A DNA stretch of 64,000 nt from positions 2,433,042 through 2,497,041 of the forward strand of contig OX638375.1 of assembly GCA_951813575.1 (NCBI GenBank), given 5' to 3'. Below the pieces are notes generated by a model. That model worked only from the letters and a program-made list of their open reading frames with translations. It was not told the origin of the DNA and made no database searches. The number at the start of each line of letters is the position of its first letter. Position 1 is the first letter of the stretch. The position numbers were made by a program, and so were the translations under genes. This DNA is from Candidatus Binatia bacterium (GTDB lineage Bacteria > Desulfobacterota > Binatia > UBA9968 > JAJDTQ01). Positions 32,565 to 37,172 of this stretch are shown one piece after another.

Positions 32565-33289
32565 CCGACATCAACCTCTTCGTTGCCTTCACGGCCGGCG
32601 GGCTGTCGTTTCTCAGCCCTTGCGTCCTGCCGTTGATCCCGTCGTATCTGTCGTTCGTCTCCGGCATGTCGCTCCAGGAAATCCGCGAGGGCGGCTCCGG
32701 CGGCGCCCGGGTGATGGGGAACGCCCTGGCGTTCGTGTGCGGCTTCTCCCTGGCATTCGTCGCCCTGGGAGCGTCCGCGAGCTTTCTGGGGAGCCTGCTG
32801 ATCGCCTACCAGGACGTCGTCCGGTGGTTGGGCGGCCTGTTCATTCTCTTGGTGGGGCTCTACCTGACGGGGCTCTTCAAGGTCGTGGCCCTCGACCGCT
32901 ACGCGCAGTTCAACCTGCGCAGCAAGCCCGCGGGCTATCTCGGGTCGGTGCTGGTGGGCCTTACCTTCGCGGTGGCGTGGATCCCCTGCGTGGGTCCGAT
33001 CCTGGGCGCCATCCTGACCCTCGCCGGCACCACCAGCGAGATCCAGCGGGGCGTGGTGCTGCTCTCCGCCTACGCCGCCGGGCTGGCGCTGCCGTTCCTC
33101 CTGAGCGCGCTGGCCATGAACCAGTTCTTCAGGGTGTCCCGCGCCATCGGTTCCTGGCTGCCGGCCATCCACGTCGCCGCCGGCCTGCTGCTGGTGGCCG
33201 TCGGCATCCTCCTGCTCACCGACACCATGACCGCGCTCAACGCCTACGCCCTCCGCTTCACCCCGATCTGGCTGGTGGAGAGGCTGTAG
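32561..33289 (+). CDS. ccdA: CcdA/DsbD-like thiol:disulfide membrane transporter
   Basis: A 242-residue inner-membrane protein with six helices in two related halves, each bearing the active Cys-Pro: SFLSPCVLPLIPSYLSFVSG (about residues 16-35) and AWIPCVGPILGAILTLA (about 136-152). CcdA passes electrons from cytoplasmic thioredoxin to periplasmic thiol-disulfide proteins used in cytochrome c maturation or copper-site assembly. It is coupled to the preceding hydrolase gene by ATGA. The VKOR, Sco and Cox11-like genes at 58-61 kb belong to the same general chemistry. Confidence 0.9.
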   Translation: MTDINLFVAFTAGGLSFLSPCVLPLIPSYLSFVSGMSLQEIREGGSGGARVMGNALAFVCGFSLAFVALGASASFLGSLLIAYQDVVRWLGGLFILLVGLYLTGLFKVVALDRYAQFNLRSKPAGYLGSVLVGLTFAVAWIPCVGPILGAILTLAGTTSEIQRGVVLLSAYAAGLALPFLLSALAMNQFFRVSRAIGSWLPAIHVAAGLLLVAVGILLLTDTMTALNAYALRFTPIWLVERL

Positions 33290-33527
33290 GTATCGGAATT
33301 TGCAACTCCAACCCTTGAATGACAAGCGCTCAAACGATACAAACCCGCACAGACGCTCGGTGACGTTCCGGGTCGGGTTCTGTGAGAGCATTGGAGGGCG
33401 TGGTAAGATAGATTACTGGGCTCCTCTCAACTGAATAAGGCAGCGACTTCGCCGATAAACTAATAGATGAGTTTCGTCACGCTCCGCACCTGACCTTGGA
33501 ACTGCTCAAACCGCGACGAGTCCTGAA

Positions 33528-34331
33528 ATGCCCATAGCCTTCAAGAAACCGCCGATCAATGAAGTGGTGGTCGCCACTTATTTCACCCCACCTCTTTCCA
33601 CGCTGCGTAGCGAGCATATCGGACTGTTCTGGCAAACGATCCGCGACGAATTCCCTATAGCCCGCCAGCAACCTCCCGTAGCGCTCCCAAACGAGATCGT
33701 CGCGCTGACTCCCGAAGTCGCCAACGACGAATTCCTTCCGATGCCACGGTACTGGTTTATCGCGGACAACGAAATCAATCTTATTCAGGTCCAGAAAAAC
33801 GCCTTCATGTTCAACTGGCGTCGCAGGGACCAGGGATACCCACGCTTCCACCGGAACATCAAACCTATGTTCGACAAATACTACGGCCGTTTCAATGAGT
33901 TTCTTCGGAAGGAACTCAACACGGAAGACCCTACCGTCGACCTTTGTGAGTTAAGCTATATCAATGCTTTGGAGCGCTGTGATTTCTGGGATGGACCGGA
34001 TGCTACTGCGACTGTCATCCCGTCTTTTTCGATTCTAGCTCCCGACATCGACACTGCTGGAACCGCCGCGTTCAACTGCAACTACGTGTACAAGATGAGT
34101 ACGGATTTGCAACTCAACATCGGGATACGTACCGGCGTTGCCACCCAACAGCAAAACAAGCCCGTGCTAGTATTCGAAATAAAGGCGAGCGGCCGTGTGG
34201 GGGAGATCGCTAAACCAGCAACGGACGAATGGTTCGAGCGAGCTCATGACGCGATTTTAAAATGCTTTTTGAGCATCACGAGTGGCGACGTTCGAACCCG
34301 TTTCTGGGAGGCCGTGGAGGAAACGCAATGA
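33528..34331 (+). CDS. TIGR04255-family protein, first gene of a three-gene cassette
   Basis: A 267-residue cytoplasmic protein. It begins FKKPPINEVVVATYFTPPLSTL, characteristic of TIGR04255, followed by MPRYWFIADNEINLIQVQKNAFMFNWRR (about residues 72-99), the other conserved block. The family is sporadic and functionally unknown, often in accessory DNA. The next gene overlaps by 4 bp, and a third overlaps that by 4 bp, so the three are one coupled unit. GC is clearly below the genome style, which suggests horizontal gain. The 238 bp upstream holds no other gene; a TAAGAT -10-like box lies near 33405. Confidence 0.72.
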   Translation: MPIAFKKPPINEVVVATYFTPPLSTLRSEHIGLFWQTIRDEFPIARQQPPVALPNEIVALTPEVANDEFLPMPRYWFIADNEINLIQVQKNAFMFNWRRRDQGYPRFHRNIKPMFDKYYGRFNEFLRKELNTEDPTVDLCELSYINALERCDFWDGPDATATVIPSFSILAPDIDTAGTAAFNCNYVYKMSTDLQLNIGIRTGVATQQQNKPVLVFEIKASGRVGEIAKPATDEWFERAHDAILKCFLSITSGDVRTRFWEAVEETQ

Positions 34332-34963
34332 TGTCGGAACTGTCTAGCCTTGTCGCTGCAGACTACCCATCACGCGAACTGCTGAGCGAGCACGGTTCCA
34401 CCTCTGACTTTGACGTAGAGCCCGTTTCGCGGCAACCAAGAATTCCTCGCATCCTTGTCTCCCATCGCACGTCAGAATCGGGCGACAACTTCCGCTGTAG
34501 CGCGGTCGACGAATGCGTTCTCACACCTACCAATGATCCCACAGTCCTTCTTGGTCCGTGGGACCTCTTCATGGCCGAAGTCGCCGACAACATACGGCAG
34601 ACGTTGGTAATCGGACAAGCATACCGGAACCGAATCGAATCACTTCGCAGCGATGCCGCGCTCGATGGTTTCCTCGTTAACAAGGCCTCCGAGCGGGACT
34701 TCTGGTCTTTTGTGAAGTCAATGCCTTTCGCCCAAAAGGCAGACGTAGTCCTCGTGGACAACGGCAATCTTCGCGCAATTTGGGACAGGGAGGACGGTAC
34801 CCACCTTGGACTCCAATTTCTTGGCAATCGCACGCTGCAATACGTCATTTTTCGACGGCGGCAGGGAAGTAGCAATATCTCACGTGTGGCCGGTCGCGAT
34901 ACATTCGAAGGTGTTTCACAACAGGTACAGGCTTTCGGACTCAAACCGCTCCTGCAAAGATGA
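34328..34963 (+). CDS. Unknown protein, second gene of the TIGR04255 cassette
   Basis: A 211-residue protein I do not recognise. The N-terminal about 50 residues look disordered (Ser, Glu, Arg-rich). The middle has a helical region (WDLFMAEVADNIRQTLVIGQAYRNRIESL) and the C-terminal half alternates beta-like strands: DVVLVDNGNLRAIWDREDGTHLGLQFLGNRTLQYVIFRRR. This last part resembles short proteins that accompany TIGR04255 genes, with a compact beta-sheet ending in the basic RRRQG. Overlaps of 4 bp on both sides give strict coupling. No signal peptide or membrane helix. Confidence 0.6.
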   Translation: MMSELSSLVAADYPSRELLSEHGSTSDFDVEPVSRQPRIPRILVSHRTSESGDNFRCSAVDECVLTPTNDPTVLLGPWDLFMAEVADNIRQTLVIGQAYRNRIESLRSDAALDGFLVNKASERDFWSFVKSMPFAQKADVVLVDNGNLRAIWDREDGTHLGLQFLGNRTLQYVIFRRRQGSSNISRVAGRDTFEGVSQQVQAFGLKPLLQR

Positions 34964-35412
34964 CCGGCATCGACCTTCCGGACGCGGCTCACGTCGTTCG
35001 ATATGTAAAGCCGACAGACGTACGTGACGGCGGAAAAATCGCTGGTGCGGCGTTCTGCCTCCGAGCGTGGCGACCCGATGATACCAGCTTGTCTGTCAAC
35101 TGGCTTGAATGCTTTGACAACCTCACAAATGAGCAGCAAGTCGCCGAGGTGAGGCGGCTGTCAAGACTAACGATGCGGGAACGCGGTCGGCTTGCTGAAT
35201 TGAACGTAGGTGCTACCAAAGAACACCTCCGCAGCCGACTCGACTCGGTTCGCTTCGTTAACACACCCCTCGCCAAGGAGGGTACTCACGAAGCCGATCC
35301 TTCCCATAGCGAAGTCACCGCCCTGCCTTCCGCAGACTCCCCCGAAGCCGAATTGATCGGGGACATGATCGCACAAACCATAACCACCATCTATCCCGCA
35401 ATCCAAAGATAG
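34960..35412 (+). CDS. Unknown protein, third gene of the TIGR04255 cassette
   Basis: A 150-residue protein of unknown function. The first half has aromatic and charged residues around AAHVVRYVKPTDVRDGGKIAGAAFCLR and LSVNWLECFDN; the second half is helical, then a low-complexity acidic linker. The HxxR...K arrangement and the VNWLE motif recur in small cassette proteins, but I cannot assign a domain. It starts inside the stop of the previous gene (ATGA), and the enolase gene converges 17 bp after its stop. Confidence 0.6.
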   Translation: MTGIDLPDAAHVVRYVKPTDVRDGGKIAGAAFCLRAWRPDDTSLSVNWLECFDNLTNEQQVAEVRRLSRLTMRERGRLAELNVGATKEHLRSRLDSVRFVNTPLAKEGTHEADPSHSEVTALPSADSPEAELIGDMIAQTITTIYPAIQR

Positions 35413-35428
35413 TCGGTATCTCGGGACC

Positions 35429-37172
<1,744 letters not shown>

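Follow-up and report, generated by a model that had tools for sequence, protein, structure and literature searches.

A TIGR04255-headed three-gene cassette inserted between ccdA and eno represents a mobile unit with an exchangeable head, a constant gene pair and a predicted ADP-ribosyltransferase-fold third protein

Results

The cassette and its insertion between ccdA and eno

We analysed a 64,000-nucleotide stretch from Candidatus Binatia bacterium (contig OX638375.1, positions 2,433,042 to 2,497,041; hereafter the window), in which a compact cassette of three genes lies between ccdA and eno. The first gene encodes a member of the TIGR04255 family and is referred to as the head; the second and third encode members of two families defined here, g2 and g3. 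The features of the locus are as follows.

33290..35428, no strand: inserted segment, comprising the cassette and 238 bp upstream of it, delimited by the empty sites in sister genomes
33528..34331, + strand: gene 1, the head, encoding the TIGR04255 family protein P0001 (267 amino acids), from an NCBIfam match
34328..34963, + strand: gene 2, encoding the g2 family protein P0002 (211 amino acids), from a profile match; ATGA overlap with gene 1
34622..34855, + strand: conserved g2 core of gene 2, residues ~99-176, pattern ..NL.A.W..., a profile-aligned region
34960..35412, + strand: gene 3, encoding the g3 family protein P0003 (150 amino acids) with a putative ADP-ribosyltransferase fold, from a profile match and a relative's model; ATGA overlap with gene 2
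34999..35001, + strand: codon of Arg14 in gene 3 (family column R20), Arg in 72/78 sequences
35092..35094, + strand: codon of Ser45 in gene 3 (family column S50), Ser in 77/78
35305..35307, + strand: codon of His116 in gene 3 (family column H97), His in 77/78

A sequence-only reading had described three overlapping genes, low in guanine-plus-cytosine (GC) content and wedged between ccdA and eno, as a transferred cassette. The coordinates and lengths are exact, as are both 4-bp ATGA overlaps (34328-34331 for genes 1 and 2, 34960-34963 for genes 2 and 3), and the GC content of the cassette is 54.5% compared with 66.3% for the rest of the window, no higher than that of all but 2 of 622 windows of the same length. 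The position is borne out too: ccdA (ending at 33289) and eno (ending at 35429) are convergent genes whose stop ends are separated by 2.1 kb. Neither a sigma-70-like promoter nor a same-strand terminator was found at the cassette locus, and no signal peptide or membrane helix was apparent in the three protein sequences by inspection, no predictor having been run.

ccdA was found in all eight other searched genomes of the genus, with 80-84% identity. In the sister genomes G001, G002 and G006, the gap between the ends of ccdA and eno measures 61, 27 and 34 bp and contains nothing of the three cassette genes. These empty sites show the proposed transfer directly: the cassette was inserted between ccdA and eno. 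Because nothing between the two stop codons of the window is present in the sister genomes, the inserted stretch extends over ~33290-35428 and is thus longer than the 33528-35412 noted earlier. In three further sister genomes, G004 (L216), G005 (L215) and G007 (L214), ccdA is followed by a different small gene, putatively encoding a GIY-YIG-like endonuclease; the ccdA-eno gap is therefore a repeated landing site. The six-base repeat GGTATC occurs near both ends of the insert (window 33288-33294 and 35414-35420) and may be a target-site duplication or a chance match; repeats are also present at the ccdA-eno spot in two of the last three genomes.

Family membership of the three proteins

P0001 matched the NCBIfam model TIGR04255 with 70.6 bits (E 1.7e-19; residues 5-259 on model positions 2-251 of 252) against a curated cut-off of 30 bits, upholding the earlier assignment. 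Gene 1 is thus a full-length member, well above the cut-off, of a family that NCBIfam names only as sporadic (sporadTIGR04255) and to which it gives no function; here this member is one of several heads of the g2-g3 pair. The AlphaFold2 model of the head (predicted local distance difference test score, pLDDT, 88.6; predicted template modelling score, pTM, 0.88) gave no convincing structural match in the PDB, and START/Bet v 1-like matches with a template modelling score (TM) of 0.3 or less were not used. Distant TIGR04255 genes head other partners, for example HNH nucleases (L010, L011) or a helix-turn-helix protein (L003). The L010 (2199-3343) and L011 (2189-3279) loci constitute a different three-gene set, in which the TIGR04255 head is followed by an uncharacterised protein and an HNH endonuclease. 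The genome of the window itself carries a second TIGR04255 gene (L008, G000:C1:3009927-3010670), whose different partner has 233 amino acids and belongs to no family.

P0002 and P0003 had no match in Pfam, NCBIfam, PADLOC or PHROGs, which supports the earlier view that they are not ordinary housekeeping proteins, and none of the three proteins was matched by a PADLOC-DB 2.0.0 model at E-values up to 5. We defined the g2 family by a profile of 69 proteins found directly after TIGR04255 heads, and the g3 family by a profile of 59 proteins with conserved Arg, Ser and His. The g2 pattern reads NWDSYG ... GGiqleW, and that of g3 reads RRI ... SSAAF ... SV ... DP.p.nPaHa.v.G. Searching the phylum with gene 3 retrieved close relatives that share the gene layout of the window, and these provided subfamily profiles. 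The gene-2 subfamily profile matched the broad g2 profile (E 2.6e-6, probability 88.7) and the gene-3 subfamily profile the broad g3 profile (E 5.3e-8, probability 94.8), while the crossed control comparisons were null. Compared singly with the broad profiles, neither P0002, which alone is too divergent, nor P0003 was significant, so the family link rests on the subfamily profiles. Plasmids likewise gave no match when searched with the single sequences of genes 2 and 3, nor did phages when searched with that of gene 3. N147, W152 and F164 are invariant in the g2 core (alignment A5). These profile comparisons place genes 2 and 3 of the window in the g2 and g3 families.

Conserved gene order and an exchangeable head

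A head alignment was searched against the genomes of 84,980 species and yielded 79 loci (head-bait loci), from phyla including Nitrospirota, Acidobacteriota, Planctomycetota, Proteobacteria and others. Among the 77 heads with at least 1 kb of downstream sequence, g2 follows directly in 72, and g2 then g3 in 66. Among the 11 exceptions, L073 has an insertion sequence between g2 and g3, L056 encodes a PIN protein as its third product, L049 and L051 have a divergent third gene, and L050, L092, L101, L103 and L106 are relatives with the head alone. The g2 protein of L056 (2068-3433) has a C-terminal extension that resembles a VapB-type antitoxin, and L033 (6446-6910) appears to be a decayed cassette in which a deletion has joined the start of the head to the end of g2. 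Joins between head and g2 are mostly overlaps, often of 4 bp, and those between g2 and g3 are mostly short gaps. The three proteins show correlated pairwise distances (0.64, 0.69 and 0.63, reached in 0 of 2000 permutations), with shared organism history contributing to the values.

A second scan used g3 as bait in 395 genomes of the phylum of the window and 396 of the phylum of an acidobacterial genome. g2 lies directly upstream of g3 in all 15 g3-bait loci with upstream sequence; the match is weak (E 0.03) in L207, a second copy in a genome already known to hold the cassette. The heads of these loci vary. TIGR04255 heads were found in L156/L163, L198-L202 and L207. Another head is shared by L165 and L127 (23% identical; that of L127 has no TIGR04255 match), a third kind is common to L159 and L160, and L161 and L204 carry others. 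L164, L205 and L206 each encode g2 and an unrelated head as a single fused protein, and L162 has no obvious head. A candidate assignment of the L161 head as a COMM-domain protein received no support from Pfam, and this head is called unrelated; the heads outside TIGR04255 may include distant structural relatives. Since g2 lies upstream of g3 throughout while the heads vary, the g2-g3 pair is the constant core, and the head can be TIGR04255 or one of at least five other kinds.

The three-gene unit is thus real, mobile and co-inherited: its head is exchangeable, and the two families that make up its constant pair are undescribed. Inheritance together and in the same order, as foreseen from the sequence of the locus, is seen across both scans, with the amendment that the constant part comprises only genes 2 and 3 and the TIGR04255 head can be replaced. 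The cassette is sporadic, occurring in ~2.5-2.8% of genomes in the two phyla, as is the case for conflict genes. One genome, G361, holds two g2-g3 loci (L125 and L159), and the g3 gene of L125 (6873-7313) is broken by a stop codon.

Predicted fold and conserved residues of g3

The AlphaFold2 model of the g3 family member from L041 (pLDDT 95.5, pTM 0.87) was compared with known structures using Foldseek. Its eight best PDB matches were all ADP-ribosyltransferase (ART) folds, belonging to KptA/Tpt1 or AvrPphF ORF2. The KptA/Tpt1 matches included 9ldi (probability 0.99, TM 0.48) and 8tfz, a structure with NAD (probability 0.87); AvrPphF ORF2 (HopF; 1s21) ranked second with a probability of 0.80. 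The best viral structural match to g3 was BFVD entry A0A9E7QQI2, an unnamed viral protein of 149 amino acids (probability 1.00, E 0.002). From the model, g3 probably adopts an ART fold akin to the KptA/Tpt1 NAD lobe. No nuclease or toxin motif had been recognised before in the cassette; the third protein does have a recognisable fold, a predicted ART. Across 78 diverse g3 sequences, Ser50 and His97 (77/78 each), Arg20 (72/78) and Arg80 (69/78) are near-invariant, and P0003 keeps three of these as R14, S45 and H116.

The structural matches raise the question of whether the cassette serves RNA repair, with g3 acting like the NAD lobe of KptA/Tpt1 in mending RNA ends cut by host or phage ribonucleases and the head and g2 binding RNA. 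KptA/Tpt1 proteins are the closest folds of the g3 model, and KptA has a role in repairing RNA in conflicts with phages (PMC9503650). In Tpt1, however, the N-terminal RNA lobe supplies three of the four residues of the essential tetrad (Arg-His-Arg) (PMC6333775). The g3 proteins (129-150 amino acids) have neither this winged-helix lobe in the model nor the Arg-His-Arg of the tetrad, and they always lie next to g2. g3 is therefore not a KptA, and may at most share the type of NAD lobe with which KptA works. Neither an RNA ligase nor a 2H family occurred among the commonest neighbour families listed, and we regard an RNA-repair or RNA-modification module as very unlikely. AvrPphF ORF2 is an ART-fold effector; it is secreted by plant bacteria, whereas g3 is encoded in an intracellular operon without secretion context.

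Phage, restriction and other neighbours of the cassette

The whole cassette is carried as cargo in two IMG/VR viral contigs, L128 and L129. It lies between a putative NlpC/P60-like open reading frame (no Pfam match) and a Phage-tail_3 protein in L128, and between a phage integrase and a ParB-methylase in L129. In L128 (4203-10332; IMGVR_UViG_3300049218_000483) the cassette is situated inside a tail gene module whose tail protein matches Rcc01698 (gene-transfer-agent-like). Searches with g3 or the head of the viral copies gave no match in named phages and plasmids.

Several other copies lie in a mobile or conflict context. Among near relatives, L123 lies next to a type III-like DNA methylase and a Schlafen/AlbA_2 protein, L125 next to HsdR and HsdM, and L126 next to HsdR. 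L199 lies next to a TIR protein, L206 next to a UvrD helicase and L161 next to a rolling-circle Rep; Abi genes occur beside some loci. In L164 the g2-g3 pair lies between HsdM and HsdS, a placement reminiscent of PrrC, the restriction-linked guard of type I loci; the cassette differs in having no anticodon nuclease, and most of its copies are not restriction-linked. Restriction genes were found near 6 of 27 g3-bait loci, 3 of 79 head-bait loci and 0 of 20 controls, a count that leans towards the g3-bait set, from which the queries came. PADLOC families were matched 37 times compared with 10 in controls, with ~149 flanking proteins each and several families matching the same protein. We make no strong defence-island claim, as most flanks are ordinary. 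For the defence role suggested earlier, viral carriage and the restriction-modification, TIR, Abi and UvrD genes beside some loci thus provide circumstantial support, and the ordinary neighbours of most loci speak against it.

The same surroundings bear on two other explanations. DarT-like ART-fold toxins are established toxin-antitoxin effectors, and the cassette could be a stress-related or selfish toxin-antitoxin-like element with no phage role, with g2 and the head restraining g3 as the toxin; such an element would be kept because its loss harms the cell. Sporadic occurrence mostly among ordinary genes, tight coupling and the VapC-type PIN protein in the third place of L056 are consistent with this. 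The likeness to DarT/DarG and other ART-fold toxin-antitoxin systems, a small protein of predicted ART fold in a tight operon, is one of working only: P0002 matched nothing in Pfam or NCBIfam and P0001 only TIGR04255, leaving genes 1 and 2 without a match there to the DarTG macrodomain or a known antitoxin family. Three genes with exchangeable heads would be unusual for a simple toxin-antitoxin pair, and some loci are embedded in or adjacent to restriction systems, while two are on viral contigs. We consider this explanation unlikely, if a serious candidate. Alternatively, the three proteins could form an accessory complex, non-enzymatic or metabolic, that simply spreads by transfer, with an ART-like fold that is coincidental or has become inactive. 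The weak Foldseek E-values, the absence of a catalytic triad of known class and the ordinary neighbours fit such a complex. Against it, the retention of Ser and His in 77/78 sequences at ~25-35% family identity suggests a preserved active or binding site, and head exchange, insertion sequences and viral carriage fit conflict genes better; we regard an accessory complex as quite unlikely.

Discussion

We tentatively propose that the cassette is a horizontally moving conflict module, abortive or toxin-antitoxin-like, in which the head is exchangeable, g2 serves as adaptor or antitoxin and g3 is an ART-fold effector; we infer this function and hold it to be quite possible, if short of probable. 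In such a module, the effector g3 would halt growth by using NAD+ to modify an RNA or protein, or by consuming NAD+ itself. g2 would bind g3, either holding it inactive or linking it to the head. The head would release the effector on sensing its trigger, either infection by a phage or a neighbouring restriction system that has been lost or inhibited. Overlapping or closely spaced genes would hold the three products in fixed proportion, as in toxin-antitoxin and abortive-infection operons.

Several observations weigh against this proposal. The best Foldseek match of g3 (E 0.02, TM 0.48) falls below a firm fold assignment, and the ART fold was predicted for the relative L041 and not for P0003 of the window. 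The second conserved Arg is a Lys in P0003, and the Arg-Ser-Arg-His set of the family differs both from the classical R-S-E triad and from the Arg-His-Arg-Arg tetrad of Tpt1. In the head-bait scan, only the 3 of 79 loci adjoin restriction genes, and ordinary metabolic genes make up most neighbours.

More broadly, the cassette could represent an unrecognised immune or self-arrest class, in which sensor heads of TIGR04255 and at least five other kinds are swapped on a constant adaptor-effector pair whose effector is a minimal ART with a new Arg-Ser-Arg-His active site, spread over many phyla and carried by phages; we regard this as possible but rather doubtful. What is new is the g2 and g3 families; the kind of system, a small ART effector controlled by its neighbours, is already known.

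TIGR04255, known only as 'sporadic', gains a first context and a testable mechanism, and is now linked to two families with no match in Pfam, NCBIfam, PADLOC or PHROGs. Should g3 prove to be an ART effector controlled by an exchangeable sensor, the cassette would constitute a modular system of self-arrest or defence that present defence finders miss, and comparing the heads could teach what each one senses.
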